Source: Calycina herbarum
Lineage: Eukaryota; Ascomycota; Leotiomycetes; Helotiales; Pezizellaceae
Direction: 5' to 3'
DNA: 64,000 bases
Assembly (NCBI GenBank): GCA_001414485.1
Contig: LLEY01000046.1
Location: forward strand, 1 to 64,000
Numbering within the stretch: the stretch's first letter is position 1; each line of letters starts with the position of its first letter. The notes under the pieces were generated by a model. It was not told the origin of the DNA, ran no database searches, and worked only from the letters and a program-made list of their open reading frames with translations. Position numbers and translations under genes: made by a program. Of this stretch, positions 16,486-59,032 are shown one piece after another.

Positions 16486-19400
16486 TCGATAAGGGTTTAG
16501 ACAATTCGAGGGTACGGGCATCAACCAAACCTCCCAACCTCCTGAATTAGATGACCGGATGAGATGCAGGACTGCATCCCAATTACTAACCTCCTCAATC
16601 ATCCCCGCCATCTTGTTATTCGAGAGACTGGGAGTTTGGGAGATGGCAGAAACAGCAGCCTCCAGGGAAGTTTATAGCGGACTGCTCTGTATTCTCTATG
16701 CTTTTAGGTTCACTGTCGTACCTCAGATAAAATTCGCCTGATATACGCCGTAGATATCAACGATTATCAAGAGAACAGGTTCTTCAACTCCAAACACAAA
16801 GACACACACACGACCCGTAAGGCGAAAAGAACCCAGCACATGAGAATAAATCAAAGTTTACAGACAAAAAATGCATATGTGAATGGCAGATATCATATTG
16901 TGATCTACTCAGGTCGGCTACGTTCAACCTCAGACAGCTTTCACCATTATCCAAGATGTATACGCAGTACGACATTCCACATATTAAGTCCTGGCGGATC
17001 TCAGATGTAGCCATTGCAACAGTGACCGAATGGATCAGTTGTCAAATCGTCGACGAAAGTCTGGTATACTTGTGAAGGGGTCCGATTCTGCCTAAGTAAC
17101 CGACGACCATGTGCTGTTGAAACCGCCATAAATGGTGGTTCACAACACTCGAAGTGAGTTGAGCGTGAGAGGCTATCTGGAGGCAAAATTAGCTTTTGGT
17201 CACAATTTCAATCGCAAAATATCAAAATAGAAACTCAAAAGAAATATCAGATATAAGCCTTGTCACAGGCATTATCATCAATACCAACGTGTGGTTATGT
17301 TGACCGTCGTGATAAAATTGTTCATCATATTAAGGCAGATTGAGCAGAGTGAAAAGCAAATGTAAATAACGTACCCAGATATGGTCTCGGTCATGATCGA
17401 GCAACTGGATGATGTAGAGCAAATGATGGAAACCTATTGAATATCGAGTCAGCGATTGGCCGACACAGAACAACTTCACGCTACAAGTTATCGAAGCACT
17501 TTCAGTCAAAACATGCTCGTCATCACCCGAAGGCTTGGACATATGCTTGTCATTGTAGGTCAAGATCATCATTATGCTCGAGATCTGCAGTGGGGGTGGG
17601 AGTCAAAGGCAGATGTTCTTACCATTTGGTAGCCAAACCCGCCAACTATTTTCGGGTCACCGATGGCAATGTTCGAGCCCGAATTGAGCTTCCTGGGCGT
17701 TCTTCGAAACGAGGCGGAAAAAGTTGTCGTAACTCTCATTGAAGACTGGGCCTAAGATCTACGATGGCGGCCAACATAATCACTGTTGTGCGTAAAACCC
17801 ATGCACCGAGACGAAGATGGTTGTGCCCAATGGCGTTCCGTGGGCTCGACAGCACCAATAGTGGAGAGGTCTGAGGATTCTAAAATCAAGAAATTAGCTC
17901 ATGCTGCTAACAATATCAAAAAGATAAGGATTGTCACAAAGAAATATCAGTTGGCATGAATGGTTTAATTTGTTATGTGTCAACATCGGTTTCCCGGATC
18001 AGACTCGTCATCTAAAATGCTCATCATGAAAATGTGAATGGGATGAAATGAAGAAAGAGTAACATACCAATCAAGCTCGAAGACAGCAAGTATTGAGTTC
18101 TGTAGAACGAATATATGTCAACGATGTTCCCATCAAATCCATGTAGTTCGCACACGCCAGAAGATTGAGGTATGTAATCAGTGGGCGAGGTTTTCTAGGC
18201 CTGCCGCAAAATGGCGTCTCCTTTCACGAACCAGTCCCGTTTTCGAGTACTGTCGGAGCCCAGTGCCGTCTCATCATTTGACATGTTGATGTGTGCAGAG
18301 AAAAGACGAGAAGGGTGGTGGTGCTTCGTACCTTGTGAGGTCATGGCCTGCTGTTTGAATGTGCGAACCTATCATCCAACATCGTTAGTGATTGCCTCCA
18401 AGGTTGATCAGAAACAAAGTGGGAATGGATTGAAGGAGCTCAGAAATAGCCATTTTTTGACTTCAAAGACTTGCGCCTCAGTCGGTAATTTCCAGCGTGC
18501 AAAGCACGAATTGTTCATCAGAGCCGGGGTATGGGAAGGAAAGAAAGTGATGGAGACGTACATTGTGTGTGGGCATAAAGTCGTGTCTCGATATGTGCGT
18601 GGGACATTGTGCCCAAGGCTGCCCTGCAAGTTGACTGTGCTGAAGGCTCAACGCGTCGAGTTGCGGGGCAGCCTTGAGTGTGACCGCGAGGTTTGCATCG
18701 CAGATGGAAGTAGAATCTATGAGCGCCAATTAGCGACTGTTCAAGCAGAGAACGCCTGTGATGGTTGAAATGTGCTCTTGTGTGTCAGACTGACGTATAC
18801 AATAGTTTCATTCCCCTAGTAGAGGGTCAAAGACTCTAGTTTGCGGTTGTATGTTTGTCATCATATTGAGGGATGGAAAGAAAAAAAGCTGATCGCATAC
18901 CTGACAAGAGAATGGTAGAATTGAATTGATTGATCGAACTGCGCGAGGCAGTGATCTGGAGTTGGTTGTTCACATTGTTGGTGGGAAGTTGTTGTTGAAC
19001 TGGTGAGCAATGAGCAAGAAGAAGCTTGAGCTCGAAATTTTCTCGAAGTGGGATGCGACTAGCGCCGCGCTAGACCACGATTGCCTTAGCTCGAAGTTAG
19101 CGTCAAGTCACGAGAAGTACCACGTGACTCGGGAGAGATATCGGCGACCAGGCCGGAGAGTTGGGAAAGTTCCCGAGGTCAATCCCTCAAATGAAAATCT
19201 TCCATTTCGATTAACATGCAGAAGAAAGCTTGAACAACACCCGACATTCCCCGCAGCCGGAGGCGGCTATGTTTTTATACCTATCTTCGACCTTGTTCTG
19301 ATTAGAGAGCGTGTCTTTCCTTTGCCGGAAAATCCTCGTTCCTGCTGTTGCACCCCGCCGTGTCCGCCCTTTCTTAGCCCATTCCTCCGTAGCTTGATAG
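16486..19400. other. 2.9 kb of normal-composition DNA without a recognisable gene
   Basis: Base composition returns to normal immediately right of the copia duplication. Several 60-185-codon frames exist on both strands (for example 18211-18768 plus, and 17330-17572, 16784-17014 and 18478-18729 minus). None shows a motif I recognise, and none joins its neighbours through convincing splice sites. The minus strand has scattered donor/acceptor-like signals between 17.2 and 18.7 kb, so a small multi-exon or decayed minus-strand gene cannot be excluded. Confidence 0.4.
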
Positions 19401-45175: not shown

Positions 45176-46118
45176 TTAAGAAACGAGTTCCCAATCCTCA
45201 CCAGCATCACTTTGAATAACCTTCAAGTTTTGACCGAAGCCATCGCCCAAGAAAGTCCCAGATAACAAATCTCCGAATGCAAGGGGGACCGAAGCAGCGC
45301 CCCCAATAACAGAACCAGCTGAGTCCACGGAGATAAAAACTCGAGCTTGGGTGGCTACCGCGACAGTAACTTGATCGGTACCGATGAGGACCGGGGCAGA
45401 AATATTTTTGTCTTTAGCTGTGATGCGGAAGCGAGTTCGGCCTTGGGTAGAGAGAAAAACAGTCCCAGTCCCGTTTGTGAGATACCAATAGAGCTGTGGG
45501 TTGGACTTGGAGCGAATGAAAAAGCTACTTAAGTCTTAACAACTCGGCTGATCAATGAGGAAGGGAGACTTACCTGTTTCCACTAATATGGTCTGTAAAT
45601 TGCTGGTTGGGTGGAACATAACTCAGCACTCGACCACCAAGATCATTCAACAAAGTAACCATGATCCTGTTTTGGAATTGTGGTGCTTGGGAGGCTGTCA
45701 TGAGAGTGGTTTGTGGGTGGACGGTGGAGAATGTGTACCATTCCGGGGTTTTGCGTTCAATTGTTAGGTTCTTGCCTGCGACTTCTCTGCGAAGGATATC
45801 AAAGTCAGTATTGCCAATTCTAGAAGTATGTTTGGGGAAAATGAGGAGGAAGGAGGGATGTGAGGAGGAAATGAGTTGTCTGCTGAGGAAACCAAGTCTC
45901 AGTCCTCCTAAAACAACCCGAAAGAGGAAAAAAGAACTCGGAGAACACCCACCGCCACCATGCATCGATAACTTTGAAGCTCTCGGCAGTTAGGAGATAG
46001 CGATAGTTGTCTTGGTTGGTGGACTTGGTTCTGTTTAGTCGGCTCCTGGTTATAATTTTGGGAGTTTGGAACTATCAATTGGGTGACTCACCCATTTGAC
46101 GTAGGCGTAGAAAACCAT
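45176..46118 (-). CDS. 220-residue orphan protein, possibly beta-rich, with an introner-like intron
   Basis: Four minus-strand exons, 46118-46092, 46023-45953, 45786-45574 and 45527-45176, join in frame to 220 residues. The product starts M-V-F-Y-A-Y-V-K-W. It continues with short repeating strand-like segments (Y-W-Y-L-T-N-G-T, V-F-L-S-T-Q-G-R-T-R-F-R-I, V-F-I-S-V-D-S-A-G) and ends W-E-L-V-S. The pattern hints at a beta-trefoil or similar all-beta fold, which is only a guess. No signal peptide or membrane span. Intron 1 ends in AAG with a CTAAAC branch site close by. Intron 2 (45787-45952) is a near copy of an intron in the HET gene at 56604-56767. Confidence 0.75.
45787..45952 (-). repeat. 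Introner-like element, copy 1 (entire intron)
   Basis: 166-nt intron on the minus strand. It starts GTGGGTGTTCTCCGAGTT and ends in TACTGAC...CGCAG, so it carries its own donor, branch site and acceptor. It aligns end to end with 56604-56767, roughly four of five bases by eye, including the shared AGGTTGTTTTAGGAGGA-like core and CATACTTCTAGAA. The exons on either side are not similar. Confidence 0.85.
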
Positions 46119-46867
46119 AATGATGGGATTTGTCTTTCGTGAAGAATGTTCTCGAGTGGCTGGTTAATGAAACAGATTGGTGAAACAGATTGACCGTGGA
46201 ATTCTCCGAGATATCAACAAGTCTTAAAGAAGTCTCGTACTTATAGCCGCTCTCAACCCCTCCCTGATTGTTACTTCCTTTTTGCTCTCAAACCACCCGA
46301 TTTAAAACCAGCCGAGGTTGAGGAAGAAAGCCAATTGACTTATTATCTTCGTCCCACTCTGTTCCCCTCTCTCAAGTAGCACAGTTTCGTCGCACCAACA
46401 TTGTGGTGCTTGGTGATGAGGGTCAATCGCCAATCAAACTTTCCCAAAGGGTCTTAAGATCGTACCAGTGTTGTAAAACTCTTTTGTACACTATCACTGC
46501 TACACACTTACGAAACCACCCGCTATGTACTTGCATATGGAGGCTTGGCGACGGAGCTTGTTGCATGATGGAACACCTTTGTAGGTGCGAAGATACTCAA
46601 CTCAGATGAAGGAGTGAAGGAGGGTCTTTATAGTTTCAAAGAACTAATTAGAGAAAAGGTGAAGTGTATATGAAGAAAGTTTCTTGACAGAAAGACCTCT
46701 CGCCGAGTCAACTAATACGAGCGAGCCATGGTTGAATATTAAACTCCTAAAAACTAAGCAAAATATCATGCTGCACATATGTAATGCAACCGCAACACCC
46801 CAGATAATTGTTGTGACCACGATAACATTGGTACATCCTGCGTCTCCGTGACTTGTGTATCCAGGCC
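46119..46867. other. Upstream region of the 220-residue gene
   Basis: Promoter side of the minus-strand orphan to about 46400, then unassigned sequence. A 68-codon plus frame (46403-46609) has no supporting features. Confidence 0.35.
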
Positions 46868-47096
46868 AGCGATGGATGCGATAAAGCGGCAGCAAACATT
46901 TCAGGCTCGACCTAGTTCGTTGTTCCGGCTCTTTAGGGTAATTCAAGTAAATTATCCTAGAAGATTTGGACAATTTAAAAACAACCAAAACATTTAGAAC
47001 AATCATCGTCAATTATCCGAAATAATCTAGGTTAATATCTTTTTTAATTCTGTAATCACGAGGGGTAAATGCTGCCGCTTTTGGCGTTCTTGCGAG
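46868..47096. mobile_element. MITE-like inverted-repeat element, copy A
   Basis: About 229 bp with inverted ends: GCGATGGATGCGATAAAGCG at the left, and at the right a sequence whose complement reads CGCAAGAACGCCAAAAGCGG. Inside is a second inverted pair, CGTTGTTCCGGCT...TAGGGTAATTCAAG against ATTTAGAACAATCATCGTC. The same order of motifs recurs at about 49291-49500 and from 50711, so this is a small non-coding repeat family. Confidence 0.6.
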
Positions 47097-47475
47097 TCAG
47101 GAATCAACAGTGCTCGTCACGCTATTCCCAAATAAGCGAGAAAGGAGTTCATATCAGAATATCGAGGTACAATATGTTATCGTAGCAGTCTCTCAGGCAA
47201 TACTTGTGATTGTGTGTAAGTGCCTCTGTCTCCTAACATTGGGAAAACTGCTGTGAAACAAGTAATTCCGTGCGAGCAAAGTGATGCAATTGTAATGGGC
47301 ATACAGAGTCTCAATTTTCGTGAAAAGAAGTCTGAAGAAAGAAAGGAAAATTCGCAAGAGTTATATAAGAGGCACGCAAGACCTACTGGATTTGACGTGC
47401 TTTCATCGAGGAACCAAATTTCTTCTTCGTCTCACTTTGTTTACTATTTACTACCCACTTGTTTTCTCATTAAAC

Positions 47476-50400
47476 ATGTCCAATTCTTGGAGGGCTTTTG
47501 TCCTTGGTATGAGCATTGCTCATGCTTCTGCCCAAGAATCCGTTACAAACATCGGCCAACAGCTTTTGGGCAACAATGCAGGTTCTCCCACCATCCAGCT
47601 TGGAAACCTAACTCAAGGTTTCAACGGAGTTCCAATCACCTTGGATGATATTACTCCAGTGAAGGACCAAAGTGGAAATGTCAAGTGTTGCCCCACGTCA
47701 GTATCCGTCAGCTGTGTTTGAAATTATTTCTAATGTTCTGTAGAGGCACATTCTTCGACGGCAAAGCAGTAAACACCTAACCCTAACCCGAGGGTTGCAA
47801 TATGCCAGCTAACAATTATAGTGTGTTTTCCCACAAAACACAGTGTGTCCAAAGGATACGAAATTTCAAAATGGACTTTGCGTCCAAAATCTTCCACCTT
47901 CATGCCCGACGTAAGTAAGTCTCTTGGGTTGCGGAGCTGGACAAGTTGACTTTAGAAACAGCGGTCTTATTTTCAACGGCAATACATGCGTTTCAACGGC
48001 AAACCCAGTTTGCCCCGCTGGCTCAGCCTTTAATAATGGGGCTTGTACTGCCACCGGAAACCCCTCTTGTCCTCCTGGTATTTGAACACCCCCTCAATCC
48101 TAGAAACCAAATTGTACATACTCCTAACACTTTCTTTCAGGGACCCAGCTCCAAGGGGGTACATGTACTTCGACATCCCAACCTGCCTGCCCTTCTGGTT
48201 TCGAACTCAAAGACCAAAAATGTGTCTCGCAACAATTGCCAACTTGCCCACCGGGAGCAAGATTCGACAACGTGAAATTGTTGTGTGCGAGTGCACAATC
48301 CCCAGTATGCCCCCCAGGTGAGCTATATCTCCCAGAAATATAACCTACCTCCATTCTTACTTGTTTATAGGAACCACCTTCACCAATGGAAACGTAAGAA
48401 ACCTTTTTTTTATTATAAACTTTTTAAGTCCTTGTTATGAGCACCAGAGCTTGTAGCTATTTGCGGCTGTCGTTGCAAACGTTGTACTGGATTAACTCGA
48501 ACGATCACTGATTATTCTAAACCACTTTGCACAATATAAGATATTGTGCGAGTTAGTCTCGAATAATCAGTAATTGGGTTTCGTCATTTTTCTATGTCCT
48601 TCGGGCAATGGGAAAACAAGACTCCATGACTGCCACGTATACATACGACCCTCACTTGAAGACCCCACGTTGGAGCTACCTTAGCAAAGTTTGAGCTAAT
48701 ATATTGCAGTGTGCTTCATCTCAGCCACCCCAATGCCCACCAGGACATACCTTCACAAATGGTGTCTGCAACGCTGAATCTGGTCCGGTATGTCCCCCGG
48801 GGACCAAACTGGACGTGGGGGGCGTGTGTATTTCACAAACCGTTCCAAGTTGTACTACAGGACAATTCGATGGATCGGTATGCAAGGCAACTTCACCACC
48901 GGTCTGTCCGCCAGGTGATTATTACAATTCCTACCCCTCGAATTCATACCTAACCTTTTGCAAGGGTCCAATTTCGATGGTAAAGAGTGTTCGGCTACCG
49001 ATAAACCAACGTGCGCCCCGGGTCAGGAAATCACAACTGATACTGCAACAAGTCAAACAAAGTGTTGCCTTGTTGGAATGGCCATAGTCGGCGACAAGTG
49101 CCAGGTCAAGCCAGATGACCAAGGAAAGTGTCCAGCAGGAACATTCCTGGAAGGAACTTTCTGCAAATTCTCACCTACACAGGAACCAATTTGCCCTATC
49201 GGTAGCACGTTTAATAAGGTTTCCTGTGTTTCAACAACGCGCCCAAGCTGTCCCCCGTAAGTAAATTTTCCGCTGTTTCGCTTAAGACCTCGTCACGATG
49301 GACAGTAAAAGCGGTAGTAAATTTCCGGTTCGTACCTGCCTACCTAGCTTGTTGTTCCAGCTATCTAGGGTAATGTAAGTAAATTGTCCCAAACATTTAG
49401 AGCAAATTAAAGTATTAACCCATATAGTTGGAACAATCAACTTCAATTACCCTAAAAAGCTGAAACAACGAGCTCACACAGTCTCCATTTTACTCGCGTT
49501 ATATCAACATGCTCAGCCTGTACGCCTAAAAATTCAAGGCTGACTTGAAATCGCTCTAGTTCTCTAATATTCAGTGGCACTTTGTGTATCTATGCTGAAG
49601 GACCAGTATGTCCACGAGGTATGATGTCGTAGAAACCTCGTGTATATATTGTACCTCAAATGCTGATCTTGCTTTCCAGGCACGACCTTCTCAGGTAATT
49701 CTTGCGTAGCAACCGATAGACCAGTTTGCCCACCAGGTAAGTTTAAAAAATAAAGTATATTTTCATTCGGCCTGCTTGGGTTGTTTGCCTGCCTTCGCTA
49801 GATAGCCTAGCTTACGCCTAGCCTACCCTTGCTAGGTAAATTGTGCGGGTAGCCTGCCCTAGGCTCGCCTAGAGGGGGTGGGTCGCCTAGGTTAGCCAGA
49901 GCTCAGGTTGAGGCGAGGCGGGGCGAATGAAAACACTGGTATATTTACCATTACGGTTTCGCTGTTGCTAACATAAGTTATAGGATCAACACTAAGCGGA
50001 GACTTCTGTGCTTCTACTCAAGTTGCTGTCTGTCCCCCAGGCACTGCTTTCAGTTCTAATGCCTGCGTTGCATCTGAGCGTCCCACGTGCGCTCCAGGTA
50101 AATTGATACGAATGTTGACTTTACATCACTCTTTCTAACTTCGAACTTCTAGGAGCTACCTTTGATGGCACAACATGCGTGGTACCAACACCTCCCGATT
50201 GTCCCGTGGGTTCTTCATGGAATGGAAAGGTTTGCTTTTCTCCACAGCAACCAGTTTGTCCTCCGGGTAAGTTTTCAAGAACATTCATGATGGAGTAAAC
50301 GAGAAAGTGAGATTGGGAGAGAGTGGGAGAGATAAAACACTAGCTAATGAATCATAAAAAGGTCTCACGTATGATGGTGCCTTTTGCGTGGCCAAAGACA

Positions 50401-51752
50401 GACCAACATGCCCACCAAAGTTCGTTTACGACGGAAAATCCTGTGTTTCTAATACACAGCCTAACTGCCCCGCGGATACCACATATGACGGAAAAGCATG
50501 TGTCTCAAAAACCTCAAGACCAGCTTGTCCGCCGGATACTACCTTAGTAGGAGAGGGTTGCATATCGAACCCCACCTGCCCACCTGGTAAGCGCTCCTCA
50601 TTTCGAGGTATCCCCTTACTGGGCAATAACAGACTGTACTGACTCATTCAAAGGAACAACCTACGATGGAAAGACTGTAAGAGCATTTGGTTGAATATTT
50701 TTATTTTGCCTCCCTCGCGATGGACTCCAACAGTGCCAGTAAAAACATCGGGTTCGCACCTGCCTACCTAGCCCTCGTTGTTCCGGTTTTCTGGGATAAT
50801 TGAAGAAGATTATTCCAAAGACTTATAACAATTGAATTCCAAGTGGTTCAACTGGGTTGGAAGTTGGGTTATTTAATGTCCACCTCGAGCCCCCTCCCTC
50901 CCCTTGACCATTAAGCGAGAATGTCTCTGTGTGGTGTTTCTGGTTGTTCTAACTTAGAACACATTTCAAAGATTTGAATTAGATATTCTGGAACAATTAA
51001 AGTTGATTGTTTTAAGTGTCTAAGTTAATTTCAAACTGTTCGAAATGTTTAGGATGACATTTTAAATTCTCTAAAAGTTACAACCCCAGAAGCTATTTAT
51101 TACAGCGTTTCTTGTCTGTTGGGAGGGTGGTTTGTTTCCATGGATCTTATCAACTGACAGATTTCTCAAGTGTATTGCCCAAGGACGCCCCGTTTGTCCG
51201 CCTTCCACCTCTTTCGATGGTACCAATTGCATCTCAACACTGCAACCCACATGTTCACCCGGAACAGTGTTTGACGGAGTATCTTGCACCAGTACAAGCA
51301 GACCCGCCTGGTAAGCCATCTCTTCCACTGTTACTTCTTCCAACGATCCATGTGGCATGGTTGTGAAGAAATTTAATCCCACAGGCTCCTCTTAACTATT
51401 TCTCATCAACACAACTGGGATGCTAATCTACTATAGCCCAGCAGATACATCCTTCAATGGCCAACTCTGCGTTTCCAATGTTATTCCTGTCTGTACACCG
51501 GGGACTGAATTTAATGGGGAAAAATGCGTAAGCAAAACTGAGCCAGTCTGCCCACCAAATACTGCTCTGGATGTGTCTACAAACAAGTGCGTTGCAACCG
51601 CGAACCCCGCCTGCCCCGCCGGGACTACGTATGATTCCGCCAGCAGCAGATGTGTGACTCCCGTGGGAGTAGAAGGCGAGTGTTATGAGATGCGGGTTTG
51701 TCCCGCTGGCAGCAAAACACCCCTCAGCACTGGTCAAATAGTTGCCGCATAG
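47476..51752 (+). CDS. Cysteine-rich tandem-repeat protein (32 CPPG-type repeats, 16 exons)
   Basis: Exons 47476-47696, 47744-47768, 47822-47910, 47962-48077, 48141-48317, 48371-48393, 48710-48914, 48965-49256, 49575-49618, 49680-49736, 49984-50097, 50153-50266, 50362-50586, 50654-50676, 51171-51310 and 51437-51752 join in frame to 726 residues. The N-terminus (M-S-N-S-W-R-A-F-V-L-G-M, ending A-S-A-Q) is a plausible signal peptide. After about 70 residues come 32 repeats of about 20 residues, consensus C-P-P-G-T-x-F-D-G-x-x-C-V-x-x-x-x-P-x. Most introns fall in one of two places: inside C-P-P|G (phase 1) or just before the second Cys (phase 0). Disulphide-rich repeats and secretion suggest a cell-wall or extracellular protein; function unknown. 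Intron ends such as AAG at several acceptors were chosen because they alone keep the repeat frame. Confidence 0.85.
48505..48575. repeat. Palindromic hairpin inside the 316-nt intron 6 of the Cys-rich gene
   Basis: GCACAATATAAGATATTGTGC (48529-48549) sits between CTGATTATTC on the left and its complement GAATAATCAG on the right, giving a long stem-loop. A related half recurs at about 60380-60425. Confidence 0.6.
49291..49500. mobile_element. MITE-like element, copy B, inside intron 8 of the Cys-rich gene
   Basis: Starts CGTCACGATGGACAGTAAAA and continues CCGGTTCGTACCTGCC, CTTGTTGTTCCAGCT and TAGGGTAATGTAAG. It returns as the inverted GGAACAATCAACTTCAATTACCCTA-type arm (in two pieces) and GAAACAACGAG, ending near TACTCGCG. 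It accounts for most of a 318-nt intron. Confidence 0.6.
50711..50880. mobile_element. MITE-like element, copy C, inside intron 14 of the Cys-rich gene
   Basis: Begins CCCTCGCGATGGACTCC and continues GCCAGTAAAAACATCGGGTT, CCTGCCTACCTAGCC, CGTTGTTCCGGTTTTC. The left half matches copies A and B. The right end is unclear because further related AT-rich arms extend to about 51070. Confidence 0.5.
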
Positions 51753-52299
51753 ATATCTCAAATGTTTTGCTCGCAAGCTGATACCGGCGGATAATTTTGG
51801 GGGAGGAGATATAAAAGAGGGTAATTTTCCCTACGATCGATGTCGATTGTCTGATTTTAATTTTCTGGTGGTGGATCTTTAGCTGATGTAACTTACATTC
51901 TTCGACTTTACAAGTCCTTGTACTGTCTCTCCTTATTCATATTTAAAAACTATCTTAGAAAAGTATGAAACTGGGTTTTGTTCTTATATGAGATTGAAAA
52001 TTGGGAAACATGCTCCGCAAAGTGTTCAAAACCGGAGGGTTTGTATAGTTGGTCATGTGACTAGCCTCATTTTCTCCTTTTTCAAGGAGGCTGCCTCCAG
52101 AGTCCCGATGCTTCAGTTAAAGTGGGAGGAAATAGCTGTCGTTGTTCCAAACCCATAGCACAGTTTGAACTATTGCCCTAGGTATTTGGAACAATCAACT
52201 TCTATTGTCCCAAGTTATCTAGGTTAACTCTTTCGATTGTGCTGTAGGAGTGAAACAACGAGAGGAGAAAAGGTACCAATTTTCTGCAGCCTTTGTTAT
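51753..52299. other. 3' flank of the Cys-rich gene with a hairpin
   Basis: AT-rich 3' flank. At about 52140-52265 CGTTGTTCC is followed by GGAACAATCAACTTC and closes with GAAACAACGAG, the arms of the MITE-like family in a shorter form. No gene. Confidence 0.5.
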
Positions 52300-52301
52300 T
52301 A

Positions 52302-52417
52302 GGGCGTCCCGTATACACCAAAGGCCAAAAACAACTAAATCGTAAAACGGAAATCGTTAATCGCAAATTGTAAAGTATTACTTTAAATAGGTAGAAAATA
52401 GATTATTTTTAATCTTA

Positions 52418-52455
<38 letters not shown>

Positions 52456-53013
52456 TCTACAGCTCTAAAGCTATTAACAAGTAGGTTCTTTTATAGTAGG
52501 CTAATTAGAGAGTAAGGATAGTATATATATAGCTAGTAAAATAAGTAGTAGTACGTAGCTTATTACTAGCTGAGCTAGCGTGCCTACTATCGCCTTCTCC
52601 TATCGTATTATATCACTTTCTTACTGTTGTTGCTTAATATTAATAATTAAGAGAGAGAGGGTAGAGGGCAAGGGGGAGGAAGGAGAGAGATATTTACTTA
52701 AACTCCCCTTACCTACGCTAGGAAAAACTTTCCCCTGAACCCCGAGATGTTTACTTACCCTCCCTCTCTTCTTCTTCCCCTCCCTCTTCTTCTTCCCCTC
52801 CCTCTTCTTCTTCTTTATTAATTATTACTTAGAGTAAGAAAGCTAGAGTAAGAGAGTAGCGATAAAGGAAGATAAAGGCCATTTGCTTAGAGGCCTTAGA
52901 TAGCAATTGTCGAGTTCTACTATAGCTATACTTTTAAATACTTGGATTTTACGATTTGCGATTTGCGATTTCCGATTTAGTCGTTTTTGGCCTTTGGTGT
53001 ATTTGGGATGCCG
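52302..53013. mobile_element. Non-autonomous TIR transposon with TA duplication
   Basis: 712 bp. The ends, read inward, are GGCGTCCCGTATACACCAAA and GGCATCCCAAATACACCAAA, followed on both sides by GGCCAAAAAC, then ACTAAATCG and repeats of AATCGCAAAT. The element is flanked by TA (52300-52301, 53014-53015), the Tc1/mariner-type target duplication. The interior holds no transposase, only AT-rich sequence and a TC microsatellite, so it is a MITE. Confidence 0.8.
52421..52453. repeat. TC dinucleotide microsatellite
   Basis: An uninterrupted (TC)n run of about 33 bases inside the TIR element, probably polymorphic. Confidence 0.9.
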
Positions 53014-53276
53014 TAGTACTAGCGTGGTATAGACAGGGAGTTGGTGTTGGGAAAGATTAATTGGCATTAGTTATAAAAGTATGAAAGAAGACGTTTCCTC
53101 TTAGAAAGATATACAGTCCACCATCACACTTCAAAAGCTCTTTTTCTTGTCCCAACCACAGAAGAAGAACACTGCAAATAATTTACTCCTCTTTGGACCA
53201 CATTTATTTTTAAAGCTTTTTTCTATATTATTCCCTCAGCCACTTCTACATTTTCTTTATAAGTTCAAATCTCAGT

Positions 53277-53973
53277 ATGAGTACTCGTACTTTACATCTT
53301 GTGGCTTTCCGACAAAGTGCCCGCCAGAGGACACATTTTGCAATATTCGTGCCCTCGGACGCAAATTCAACGACTGGAACTCTCATCCACGTGGTTGGTA
53401 TCCCAATGACTGGTTATACTTTGGAGTTCAAACGCAATTATTGCCCAGAAGGCTCCAATCAACCATACACTACAACACCAATAGGCCAGGTATACTCCAA
53501 CTTAATTGTCGATTCAGTTACCACTGTAAGAAGTGCGGATGACCGCCCAAATGGAAATATAGAAGTTGTTGCCTCACAAGTTCCCCCACCACGGATCAGT
53601 GCAAACTTCCTTCAGCCAGTCAACGTTGTAAGTCACCTGTTTTCCCCCCATGAGACCTGGAACCTGCTAATATTGGCTTTAGACCACAAATCGAAGATGT
53701 CAGGAATGGACCACAGACTATGCTAAGCGTCTCGTAACTGTTTGTTATCTAGGAGAGACTGCCATTGATATTGTGCAAAATAAACGTGATCCTCCCTCAT
53801 ATGGCATAGGCTTACAGCCTGCGGGACGAGGACGTGGTGGGCCTGCACCAGTACAGGCAGGTGCTGCAGGTCCAGCAACGGTTACAACGGGTGCAAACCC
53901 TTCACCATGGGTGTGGGATGTGGATAGAAGGACATACAGACGTTGGGATGGCGCTAAGTGGATCTGGCAATAG
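53277..53973 (+). CDS. Conserved hypothetical fungal protein, 213 residues
   Basis: Two exons, 53277-53627 and 53683-53973, with a 55-nt intron. The N-terminal domain reads M-S-T-R-T-L-H-L-V-A-F-R-Q, A-I-F-V-P, G-T-L-I-H-V-V-G and M-T-G-Y-T-L-E-F-K-R-N-Y, then R-C-Q-E-W-T-T-D-Y after the splice. This resembles a family of small uncharacterised proteins common in Pezizomycotina. The C-terminus is Gly/Ala/Pro-rich and ends W-V-W-D-V-D-R-R-T-Y-R-R-W-D-G. No signal peptide or membrane span. Function unknown. Confidence 0.85.
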
Positions 53974-54854
53974 AAGGTACTAAGATGTACACATATGTTA
54001 GTAGAAATTCCTCCTTCTAGGCACATGTTGAACAAGCTGACGCTAAAGTTACTACAGATTAAGCGGCTGCGCAGAAGCAGCTCTGCACCATGGTTATTGG
54101 GAAGTTGATTTGTTTTGGATAATATTCCGCGAGGGTTTTGCTGCTTATTCTTGTTTTCAGTCTATCTTTGAAGTTTTGATTTACTTGTTAGTGTATATGC
54201 GTTGTTTTTATAATTTATGACACTCTTTTACCTTTGCAATTTTTCTGACTTCTAAGACTTCAATTCGAAATTCAGCTTTCCCGTTGAGATTCAAAAACTC
54301 TACAAAAACAATTACAGAGACGAGTGTTTAAGCAATATGTAGGAAGGTTGGAAGAGTAAGATTATCTTTCGTCTTTCTCGGTACACCTAAACAGAATGAA
54401 ATTATACTAAGAAGCCTGAAACAATACAATAACTTGGTTATATTTTGCGAAGAATTTAGGGTGACCAAAACCCTTCACTTCTTGTTGTTCCAAGTCTCTT
54501 GAAACAATAGAGTTCATGTTCAAGACTTCTAGTACAATATTATCTTACAGGTGTACGTACAGAATAATGACCTCGACTCTTACAATCTTACAACAGGCCA
54601 TTGATTAAAACTAAAACAGTAAACCTTACCTAGGTAACAAGAGAGCGTCGTTATGCAACTCAAGCATATATTGTTTGCTACCAAACCCCCTCTCTTAGAA
54701 GAAGGAAAGAGAAATGTTTATTTACCCTAACCAAAAATTGAAACAAGAAAATAGTTGATGGCAAACGGGCCATGCGACTCACTAGACTTTCTTTGCCCCT
54801 TCATTGTTACAATTGAAATTTTGAAGTGAGGTTCATTATCTTGTAGGTTTCATT
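53974..54854. other. Convergent intergenic region
   Basis: 880 bp of AT-rich 3' flanks between the 213-residue orphan and the HET gene. GTTGTTCCAAG at about 54484 is a fragment like the MITE arms. Nothing else. Confidence 0.4.
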
Positions 54855-57576
54855 CTATACTAAGCGAAAATTCTGCTTCGCGCTGTGCTTGGATATAGGA
54901 TCAACAGCTTCACCATCCATCATGCCATGTACATAACATTCTCCAATAAAATTAAGGTCCTTTCCGACTCTTTTCAATACAACTGGGACCGAACACCCAA
55001 ATATAATACATACCAAGTGGCCAACTTCGGCATTTGGTGGTCCTAAGCCAACAAGCTTTTTACCATCTTCCATAGTGGTGGAAAAGCATTTTCTTTCCCA
55101 AATCACCTGTTGTACACGATCTAGAAACTGCACCTTGCCATCGGGTGTCCCGTCTAGTCTTGCAAGGGTATTGGTGTTAAAATAAGTGTCCGGTTGGTCT
55201 TCATACCATTTCATACATGCCTTGCAAGCTATACGATACCAATTGGGTGGATTGGTGCCGTCTGGCCCCCTATTAGCCACCAGGGTTCGCCATAATTGGT
55301 CCCATTCTGCCTCAGAAAGCTCCCTGCCCTGCTCCCATCCAAGTATCCCAAGCGCTTTTTTGTTGAGCAATCCGCCTCCAATCGATGTAGATTCTTGAAT
55401 TTCTCCAAGTGAAAATCCTCGGACAGTAAGAGACCCATTGAATTGTGGTGGGGGTATTTTCTTAACTTGGACAGATTTTGTTTCGGTGTATAGTCCGGAA
55501 GCCTGCTTTAGTCGTTCTTGCTTGCCATCTGCGACAGGTTTGTATCTACCGAACTTGAACTCTGGGAGGAGTCCACCTGATGCAGAGTAGTTACTCTTCC
55601 CATTTACACCACCAACGAGGCTGTCTCCGTTGGACCGACTCTGGAACAATCCTCTAGGTCCACCATAAGCATGTCCGTCTAGTGGTAGGATCCACGAGGG
55701 GATGTTGGGTTTTCGGCCATGTTCATCCTCGGCTGGCATGGGTGCCCAGTGTCGGCAAATGATATTCAAAGACTTTGAAGTTTCCACACAATATTCTATA
55801 AAGTCTGCATACACATCGACAGTACGCTTCTCATAGTTTGGTTCAATACGTTTGTCGACCATCTTTCGCGTGGGTTTGGTGCCGCAAAATAATTTGCAAT
55901 TTTGTTAACAATAGACCTGCTGACAAGCCAAATCAAGAGTCCAATCAAGAGCAGAATCATTGTCCAGATCAATCCAATTACCCCCAATCGTGATGTTGAG
56001 CTAACGCTCACAGCCGAGGCTGACGTATAAACTAAGCTACCGCTGCTATTCCCTGAAAGCAATATCTTCATTCTCTTTTTGGAAATGATGAAACTAAATT
56101 TCCAAACTAACATGGCTATTAGCGGAACACCAAGAACACTGAGTCCCGTCACCAAGGTGAGCGTCAGCCAGGTGCTAGTTTCCTCTTCCCGGTCCTCTGG
56201 TATGAAGCTATCTTTGGCGATTTTGAGCACCGCGAAAATGGTATCCTTGGGATCTGATGCCTCAAATGCAAGGAGCATAGACGAGATCAGCTGCTCAAGA
56301 GTGAGTAAACGTTGTTGTATTTTGCCCTCGTTTGTTTTCCGAAAGAGGTTGCTGGTGGTTGTGACCAAAATATTGGCCCCAAGTGCTCTGGCATCCAGAG
56401 CCGCCATCAATTTTTCTTCAGGGTTTCGAGACGTTGAGTAGTTTTTTAGTTTTCCGTCGGAGACACGCCTGATTGAAGTGTGCTTTGTCATGAACAATGC
56501 TATTGCGTCCCCAAAATCTGTCCAAGGCATAACCTCCCCGCCACAGCGAACATATGGTCGAGTAGCCAGCGCCAGTTCTTGAATTACCCATCGCCGTTTG
56601 AACCTGCGGAAAATCTCGGAGTCAGTATTGCCCTTTCTAGAAGTATGTTTGAGGAAACTAGGAGGAAACAGGGTTGTATGAGGAAGTGAGATGTCTGGGG
56701 AGGAAATAGTGTCTCAATCCTCCTAAAACAACCTGAAAGAGGTAAAAATAACTCGGAGAATACCCACCAATCGACTTGCATCAACTTGATGACATTATTG
56801 CAGGCCAGAAGCTCCGGTTGTTGCTTTTCCTTGAGTCTCCGAATAAAAATATCTAACTTTTCGAGGTCAAGAATGTCTCGTAAAAACTGAAAGGTACGAT
56901 GGTTTTCTTCGTCTCCGCCCATGGCATCTCCAAGCCAGATACACACTTCTTCGGCTTGAAGATAAACATCATGCATGCGTGACACTTGGGCGGTTCTTTC
57001 CTCTGTGTAATTTTGGTTGATGCAAAGGGCGTCGGCCCACACGTGTACCTCTTCAGTCTTAGATCTCAATTGTCGTAAGGCGTTATTCAAGTTGTTTTGG
57101 AGGCATTTGTAGCTGACTTTATCCAATAGACTCTCCTTTGCTGTTTCTCCGGGCGTGGTAAAAAAGTTGTGAGTTCCATCATCCTCGAAAAGATAGACTT
57201 TGTGCTTTCCGATATCCGTACCCCAGTAGTATGACAGAGCTGTATATTTGATCGGTGGTACTTCCAGGTTTTTGCGCGATTGATCACTCCCAATTAAAGA
57301 ACATGGCGACAAGCGGCACTCGAGTCGAGGGTCAGCGGTCCCTGGATATATTGTGAGAACTCGTATTTCGCGGTCATAATCGATGTCTTTGTATGCATAG
57401 GTTGTCCGCTTCCCAGTTGTCTCTTCCTTAGCTCTCTTCCATAGGTACATGCTACGCCGGGCTTCGTTTCCCTGGTTGGCAACCCTGGGAGAGGCTGCCC
57501 CATTTTGGAATGTCTCCGCTCTATTTAGTGGTGTTGGGGAATTTTGTCCGGAAGTTTCTGGCTCTGAATTTGCCAT
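54855..57576 (-). CDS. HET-domain (heterokaryon incompatibility) protein with internal transmembrane hairpin
   Basis: Exons 57576-56768, 56603-55910 and 55862-54855 join to 836 residues. HET motifs: Y-T-A-L-S-Y-Y-W-G (about 111), V-W-A-D-A-L-C-I-N-Q (about 179), V-C-I-W-L-G-D-A (about 211) and R-R-W-V-I-Q-E-L (about 273, right after intron 1). Such domains trigger cell death on fusion with incompatible strains. Unusually, two hydrophobic helices (about 415-439 and 466-487) interrupt the region after S-D-P-K-D-T-I-F-A-V-L. The C-terminal part begins E-K-R-T-V-D-V-Y-A-D-F-I-E-Y-C, normal for the family. Intron 1 is an introner-like element. Intron 2 (47 nt, ends AAG, no clear branch site) is inferred to keep frame; a frameshift there is the alternative. 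Confidence 0.85.
56604..56767 (-). repeat. Introner-like element, copy 2 (entire intron)
   Basis: 164-nt intron on the minus strand. It starts GTGGGTATTCTCCGAGTT and ends TACTGACTCCGAG...CCGCAG. It matches 45787-45952 from donor to acceptor and stops at the splice sites. It splits a Trp codon of the HET domain just before R-R-W-V-I-Q-E-L. Confidence 0.85.
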
Positions 57577-59032
57577 ATCGGTGTTTGCGATAAAAAAAGA
57601 AAAACGATGGAAAGCACGAAGATGATAAAAGAAAAGGGTCAAGTCTCTGAAATGGGGTTCTGCTCTGCGTGCTTTGCGGACCTCGGAGACAAACCCAGAA
57701 GAGCTGCAGCAAGATGGCTTCAGCTGTTGGCCCGCAGTAAAGCAATAGACTTATTTGATTGGTTGGGTGGGCCTTCGAGAGGGAGTACAAATGAAGAATT
57801 GGTGGCACTCTGGATGAACGCCATGATTCAATTGACCATCAATCAACTCGGTTTGGCATGGTGTGACTGCTTTCCGGTTGGAAATCTGGGTCTTATTGGG
57901 GGCCATTGACTTTTGATAAATCAGAAGAAGTTAACAGCCTCAATTCGGTAGGGGTCGACATATATTGCCTAGGTAACCTTATGTGAGTCTGTGAGATCAT
58001 GGAGAGTGAGAATTGCTTTTTGTGAATCGGTCCCGTCTTGCGAGGGGCAATAAAAGAAGCAGGTACTGATAATTAAGTCATTCTAGGTGAGAAACAACAT
58101 CCATAATTGTAACACGATACCCCAGATTCGCAATATCGTTGAATGTGTTTTCAAAACCTACGATGACAGTCAGCAAGTTTCGAAATGAGTAGGAGGGCTT
58201 CGATTGCTATTCATTGCCGCTCGCTTCTGCCCGGCCCAGGCTTGCTAAAATTAGCAACGATAAGCATGCGCGCTCGGAGTACGGTCTCTGTTTATCCTCC
58301 GTATTGTCACATCGTGATATAAGACCGATAGCTCGAGGGTTTTATGGCTTCTGTCGAGTGTGCTGTCAATTACCAATTTGAAGTGTTTGCAGACACCATC
58401 ACGTGGCTCGAGCTAGACTTGATGTGTCACCTGACTAACCGACCTCTGGCCTTTTTACCCCACGTCTCATTTGCTAAATATTGATTGCATGTATGCAAGT
58501 CACCAATTTTCCAAACACAGATTTCCCCCACAGCCACAGCCATATCTTTTTGGAGACTCACCGTGGACTCACGGAAGCCCATTATTTGTGCTGCTGGAGT
58601 TCGCTTACCTACAGGACAGGGCCGGTGCAATATGCTTCGCCACCCCTGAGCCCACCCCACATTCCTATCCACCCCTGAAATCCAATCAGCCGCCCGTAAT
58701 CGCGGGTTTATGTCACTGTCAGCGCATCCCCTTTGTTCATGTTCTCATCTCCGCCCGGTCGGTCCTCCTATTAGTCAACACATTCGTAAACCACATCAAT
58801 GACCTGTCCGAACACCTGGGTCACTCAGCTGGAGCCTCAAAGACTACTCTCTCGAAGCAATTCGGTGTCATAGGCATATTATGCAGGCGCAGTCCCCAAA
58901 TCCCCCACAGATCCCACGAGAGTATAAGGTCTGGTCGGTGGATTAGTACCGGAGAATTCAACGACTTTTGCAGCTTCCATCATCATCTTTTCCTCATCAT
59001 ACCGAGAAAGCTTGGAACGAACACGGTTCATC
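57577..59032. promoter_or_regulatory. Divergent intergenic region between HET gene and anchored coiled-coil gene
   Basis: 1.45 kb. A 192-codon plus frame (58471-59049) and a 100-codon plus frame (57607-57909) occur but show no family features. The region probably contains both promoters. Confidence 0.35.

Follow-up and report, generated by a model that had tools for sequence, protein, structure and literature searches.

A family of introner-like elements in the genome of the helotialean fungus Calycina herbarum and its likely spread through an RNA intermediate

A stretch of 64,000 nucleotides (nt) from the genome of Calycina herbarum (Ascomycota; Leotiomycetes; Helotiales; GenBank assembly GCA_001414485.1, contig LLEY01000046.1, positions 1 to 64,000 of the forward strand; hereafter the window) contains two introns, one in a small conserved gene (copy 1) and one in a HET-domain gene (copy 2), that almost certainly belong to a family of introner-like elements. 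Members of the family recur across the genome in unrelated genes, are bounded by their splice sites, lie predominantly in sense orientation, adopt a predicted fold that pairs their ends, and have empty counterparts in homologous genes, with no target site duplication (TSD) where the junction could be read. From these features we infer splicing of the elements, an RNA step in their spread and the involvement of the corresponding enzymes; seamless insertion in sense, combined with the fold, favours an RNA route, and an RNA intermediate is likely.

Results

The two window introns align from donor to acceptor over 166 columns with 82.5% identity (E = 4.8e-45). An earlier note on the window had called them near-identical; the donor-to-acceptor alignment stands, and the coordinates and common words quoted for both introns are present in the sequence, but at 82.5% identity the adjective is too strong. 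The same note held that the flanking exons are dissimilar and that both copies lie on one strand, and we find that the 100-base exon flanks have nothing longer than 7-base words in common and that both copies are on the minus strand, in sense to their host genes. At a threshold of E<1e-3, a profile search of the window detected these two copies and no other, and BLAST of one window copy against the window returned, beyond both copies, only matches of 11–17 bases with E>1.

The entire assembly (68.8 Mb, 379 contigs) was searched with each window copy, and 40 of 196 candidates were scored for the 164-nt copy and 40 of 165 for the 166-nt copy. Among the 40 scored matches to the 164-nt query, 27 cover all 164 bases and 13 fall short by at most 12 end bases. 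With up to two mismatches allowed, the 18-base 5' end of the element occurs 173 times in the genome, compared to once for the reversed pattern, and the 18-base 3' end 244 times, again compared to once; the genome-wide search proposed in the earlier note thus yields many copies, not just two. The copy set assembled for further analysis consisted of 63 distinct copies with long flanks and 40 more with 40-base flanks, 96 of which remained after drops. Three broken copies (L058, L068 and L069) were excluded from the flank, codon and site counts and included in the 63-copy frame test described below; four with unclear acceptors (L059, L060, L070 and L096) were left out of the site counts, and L020 was left out of the direct-repeat test. 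Because the acceptor was taken to be the first YAG that follows the branch motif, all 96 copies have a YAG by construction. Element length ranges from 104 to 171 nt, with 47 of the 96 copies at 164–168 nt; all 96 start with GT and 78 with GTGGGT. Of the 40 later copies, 39 contain the branch motif CTRAC and 38 contain it exactly once; the exceptions are L087, which has none, and L088, whose second motif lies outside the element. Across 60 copies, pairwise identity averages 81%, the best pair reaches 97%, the median for the nearest neighbour is 93%, and 128 of the 1770 pairs are at least 90% identical. Of the phrase "active or recent family" in the earlier note, "recent" therefore holds for part of the family. 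The flanks of the 60 loci are mostly unrelated, with few short matches; similarity ends at the splice sites and was not seen to extend into the exons, as gene duplication or conversion would have led one to expect.

The elements behave as introns with respect to the surrounding coding sequence. With the element removed, we took the best reading frame through the junction and measured how far it stays open on its shorter side: the median is 49 codons in sense and 19 in antisense, and sense is the longer of the two in 52 of 63 copies, a set in which four copies had a wrong or unclear acceptor. Codon likelihood was higher in sense than in antisense in 49 of 60 copies, and higher in the true frame than in a frame shifted by one base in 51 of 60; among 300 control windows more than 700 bases away, the same strand scored higher in 187. 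Nine of ten spliced fragments have a Pfam match and one has none; judged from the match coordinates, the match spans the junction in eight of the ten (HET, Sugar_tr, Gpr1_Fun34_YaaH, PDR_CDR, FAD_binding_8, Aldo_ket_red, Peptidase_M20 and Glyco_hydro_47), and the 2OG-FeII_Oxy match stops short of it. A GH28 domain likewise runs across the junction in two spliced fragments, from L022 and L033, and the GH47 fragment aligns without a gap at the junction to a mannosidase of solved structure. Judged from the sequence, removal of the element restores protein domains, mostly in sense.

Homologous sites without an insertion were identified for both window copies and for two further ones. At the copy 2 junction, the relative P0001 of the HET protein aligns without a gap, and a HET paralogue at C17, matched over residues 1-219 in one open frame, has the same number of codons in its DNA, with nothing inserted. 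For the small gene, the relatives P0136 and P0134 are gapless across the W|R junction of copy 1. The most instructive case is that of L022 and L033, polygalacturonase-like GH28 paralogues each of which carries a copy where the other is empty; one-base ambiguity aside, both insertions run precisely from GT to AG and neither add nor remove a base of the site. We considered whether exon bases are carried along with the element and saw no support for this, since the paralogue is equal in length at both GH28 sites and has equal bases at the L022 site. Target duplications, for which the earlier note had recommended a search at the exon junctions, are absent from the sites that could be read: no TSD of 3–9 bp is present at the two GH28 sites read as DNA, and among 59 copies the longest direct repeat between 15-base exon flanks has a mean of 3.34 bases, compared to 3.40 with shuffled partners. 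At one offset, these 59 copies do have more repeats across the splice sites than expected (15 versus 8.2 for three bases, 8 versus 3.2 for four); this AGT repeat arises because A|GT and AG|T occur wherever the intron is preceded by A and followed by T.

The fold predicted by RNAalifold for 39 aligned copies contains 23 pairs, three of them with changes on both sides, and brings the two ends together. Among single folds, copy 2 (L001) has a z-score of -2.8 and L004 one of -3.7; over the 96 copies, the median is -2.36, with 56 copies below -2 and six above 0, and the ends are paired in 91. The near-terminal stem has all nine pairs intact in 62 of 94 copies. The longest inverted match near the element ends is about as long as in shuffled ends, and the imperfect arms pair in 91 of the 96 predicted folds. 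An Rfam scan of the window found nothing in the elements; elsewhere in the window, at 17245-18525 on the minus strand, it identified a cluster of four C/D small nucleolar RNAs (snR73, snR75, Afu_513 and Afu_300).

The bases around the insertion sites are not random, with A at -3 in 44, G at -1 in 48 and T at +1 in 38 of the 96 copies. A tree of 95 copies was built from the element sequences minus their ends (one copy shorter than 110 nt was left out); on it, flank bases cluster at -1 (p = 0.001), +1 (0.008), +6 (0.011) and -2 (0.027) among the 16 positions tested; one subclade is inserted at A|T in seven of eight copies, and another has G at -1 in nine of nine. A rule requiring G at -1 or T at +1, which described 51 of 57 copies in the first set (42.3 expected), failed in the 39 further copies (26, with 24.6 expected; p = 0.26), and therefore only the comparison of nearest relatives discussed below was kept, as a lead. 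Helitrons insert between A and T and have 5' TC and 3' CTRR ends; with A|T at only 20 of the 96 sites and the GT or GTGGGT start described above, a Helitron was rejected. In the subclade comprising L022, L025, L029, L031, L033, L039 and L040, the last 3–6 bases before the exon vary (CACTAG, CACCAG, CAATAG, CTACAG, CCTCAG, CCACAG) and the sequence immediately upstream of them is constant; the variable bases may stem from the target or from later change.

Comparison of the flanks also revealed a second family, an intron common to unrelated genes with the pattern GTATGT..CTAAT..GTTGCAG and a length of 119–127 nt in the three copies read (in L015, L022 and L068). In the genome search, 40 of 48 candidates were scored, 32 of the 40 over the full 119 bases, with identities to the query of 72–80%, leaving aside the self-match and a partial match at 86%. 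The 18-base 3' end of this family occurs 132 times, a noisier count than those above because the reversed pattern gives 22. The z-scores of the three read copies are -1.2, -2.2 and -1.6, and the ends are paired in two of them. Copies of both families are present at the three loci L015, L022 and L068, and by reading, ends of the two families are at most about 2 kb apart on several contigs (among them C318 at ~272–274 kb and C82 at ~120 kb), as if both had hit the same genes. Two copies or pieces of the first family occur at some loci (L014, L043/L061 and L069). Upstream of their main copy, L025 and L039 have in common a 31-base stretch with the branch point and acceptor of the family, which in L025 is the end of an apparent, much shorter intron. 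The flanks of L009, L025, L043, L051, L060, L074 and L033 have in common an AT-rich repeat (AATTGTTC..AAGTGT..) without splice-site boundaries, perhaps a small transposon.

Positions of the features are collected in Table 1. The 220-residue product of the copy 1 host gene, described in the earlier note as an orphan, has nine relatives at E<1e-3, those named being from Fusarium, Suillus and Penicillium, and so loses that label. The HET fragment has 114 matches in the genome at E<1e-3, some of which are exons of one gene, indicating a large HET family. A reading frame for an RNA polymerase subunit, identified in the genome with PF00562, has among the best 120 matches listed 94% identity to a protein of Hymenoscyphus albidus and 88% to one of Cudoniella acicularis, which puts the host near Hymenoscyphus, a genus of Helotiales (Leotiomycetes).

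Table 1. Positions of the elements, their parts and the adjoining coding sequence in the window, and of the second-family copy in its own locus
Feature	Position	Strand	Basis and remarks
Introner-like element copy 1	45787..45952	-	166 nt; donor 45952, acceptor 45787; profile E 7.9e-43
Copy 1 branch-point motif TACTGAC	45804..45810	-	read from sequence; motif conserved in family alignment
Copy 1 5' near-terminal arm, element nt 9-18	45935..45944	-	sequence; arm definition from family
Copy 1 3' near-terminal arm, partly decayed	45797..45806	-	sequence; arm definition from family
Introner-like element copy 2 (L001)	56604..56767	-	164 nt; donor 56767, acceptor 56604; profile E 1.6e-53
Copy 2 branch-point motif TACTGAC	56621..56627	-	read from sequence
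Copy 2 5' near-terminal arm TCTCCGAGTT	56750..56759	-	pairs with 3' arm in predicted L001 fold, z -2.8
Copy 2 3' near-terminal arm GACTCCGAGA	56614..56623	-	overlaps branch-point motif; from L001 fold
Copy 1 host gene, downstream exon	45561..45786	-	spliced-protein matches; reading frames
Copy 1 host gene, upstream exon as far as matched	45953..46044	-	reading frames; spliced-protein matches
HET gene coding, downstream of copy 2, as far as matched	56276..56603	-	Pfam HET match spans junction
HET gene coding, upstream of copy 2	56768..57577	-	start codon by reading; open frame 56584-57642; matched from 57099 down
Second-family copy	L015:2177-2295	+	like introns in L022 and L068

Discussion

The earlier identification of the window introns as introner-like elements is borne out by the many copies in unrelated genes, the similarity bounded by splice sites, the empty homologous sites and the lack of target duplication where it could be read; in its sequence, the family has the marks of fungal introner-like elements. 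As to how it spreads, the account that we consider reasonably probable, taken as a whole, is the creation of introns by an RNA route. The element would be a short non-coding repeat equipped with its own donor, branch point and acceptor, which inserts seamlessly and in sense into coding exons and so becomes a new intron. Once excised, the intron would fold into a hairpin that keeps its two ends together and would enter transcribed DNA, either reverse-spliced into the coding strand or ligated in while a break is repaired, after which the inserted RNA would be copied into DNA.

Several observations weigh against this account. The antisense frame scores at least as high as the sense frame in 11 of the 60 copies tested. 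Copy 1 in the window folds no better than its shuffled versions (z +0.49), and across 94 copies the paired arms show no covariation, with a mean of 0.52 mismatches versus 0.54 for shuffled partners. Among 104 control candidates with the splice pattern, 24% reach nine of ten pairs and 9.6% reach the consensus score. With no covariation and similar stems in control introns, the near-terminal stem does not prove selection on RNA, and we regard the fold as a sound prediction and as weak proof of function. With its hairpin shape and imperfect inverted ends, the element is also reminiscent of a small DNA transposon. Finally, in 28 copies whose nearest relative is at least 0.93 identical, the base at -1 matches that of the relative in 25 (9.8 expected) and the base at +1 in 19 (7.9 expected), and such sharing is not by itself explained by a free excised intron without exon bases.

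In these 28 young copies, positions -6 to -2 and +2 to +4 match the nearest relative at chance level, and +5 and +6 match in 15 copies each (about 7 expected, p about 0.006). Among 48 copies with a nearest relative below 0.90, there is no excess of sharing at either position (15 versus 17.0 expected at -1, 9 versus 13.5 at +1). With the A|T subclade left out, the match at -1 persists in 27 of 34 copies (11.9 expected) and that at +1 is found in 13 of 34 (9.6 expected). The p-values for the sites are optimistic, given the dependence among neighbour pairs and the large number of positions tested. The shared bases may be a fact that the RNA route must explain, or a chance pattern. Tentatively, and with more doubt than conviction, we suggest that lineages of the element carry a heritable target preference, such that a young copy inserts where the base at -1 and, less surely, that at +1 are the same as around its closest relative. 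If so, insertion would depend on bases that accompany the element or are dictated by its ends, a preference not expected if a free lariat simply reverse-splices into coding DNA at random.

The most serious competitor, which we nevertheless consider unlikely, is a non-autonomous hairpin DNA transposon, similar to a miniature inverted-repeat transposable element, that contains splice sites, is moved as DNA by a transposase and leaves either no TSD or a one-base TSD concealed in the junction. Nearly the whole element is indeed predicted to fold as one hairpin, the bias for G at -1 and T at +1 would suit an integrase, and the repeats spanning the splice sites exceed expectation at one offset; yet those repeats consist of the GT and AG of the intron plus the A and T of the site, the two empty paralogous sites show no duplication, and the ends match each other in inverted orientation over about the same length as shuffled ends do. 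The sense bias of the copies also argues against a transposon, and no partner element was seen, though no systematic search for one was made. Still less probable, in our view, is templated repair, in which a break in an exon is filled by copying an element-bearing gene (as DNA, pre-mRNA or cDNA) with switches at microhomologies of one or two bases. This would account for the bases at -1 and +1 that young copies have in common, flanked by positions at chance, but selection alone would have to preserve the precise ends of the intron, the signal at +1 fades without the A|T subclade, +5 and +6 are raised as well, and the pattern could be partly chance. That the copies are old homologous introns, or products of gene duplication or conversion, is scarcely credible: L022 and L033 are a paralogous host pair, but their copies occupy different positions, each gene being empty where the other has its copy, and the window genes have no exon similarity, with only few short flank matches among the 60 loci.

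The family can be compared with the known systems. Like the introner-like elements of Dothideomycetes (Fulvia fulva, Dothistroma and Passalora; PMC4457414), the family consists of repeated canonical introns at new positions in unrelated genes, and the two copies in one gene, the predicted stable structure and the co-linearity with transcription reported in PMC3443670 recur here; in contrast to those elements, the host belongs to the Leotiomycetes. The sister stwintrons and cropped sister introns of Hypoxylaceae and Xylariaceae (PMC8469720 and PMC12403724) are likewise seamless, in sense and empty in paralogues, and their complementary ends near the splice sites, which hold the terminal Gs close to each other, have a putative counterpart in the arms of the present family; near-terminal stems in related repeated introns are reported in PMC12403724. 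Unlike the sister stwintrons, the elements studied here are single canonical introns with one CTRAC in 38 of 40 copies, their 3' arm overlaps the branch point, and their sites are biased, whereas those of the stwintrons are described as unbiased. A [D1,2] stwintron, with two nested introns and two branch points and acceptors, was rejected on the same count of CTRAC motifs. As in the DNA-transposon introners of algae, dinoflagellates and others (PMC9860276), similarity runs to the splice sites, but at the sites tested there is neither a target duplication nor a splice site borrowed from one. The same paper describes fungal introners as located in genes and without target duplications, the ascomycete introners of its survey of 175 genomes being the outlier without TSDs or terminal inverted repeats; the present family agrees in the lack of TSDs and differs in the imperfect, near-terminal inverted arms of its predicted fold.

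A targeted literature search found no report of introners in Hymenoscyphus or Helotiales, although supplementary tables may list this genome; as far as that search shows, Helotiales are added to the groups with introner-like elements. The origin of new spliceosomal introns is a long-standing question. With two families, copies up to 97% identical, reciprocally empty paralogues and a possible site preference, RNA and DNA routes are directly testable here, and the many copies, together with a second family of the same kind, make this genome a useful place in which to study how new introns arise.

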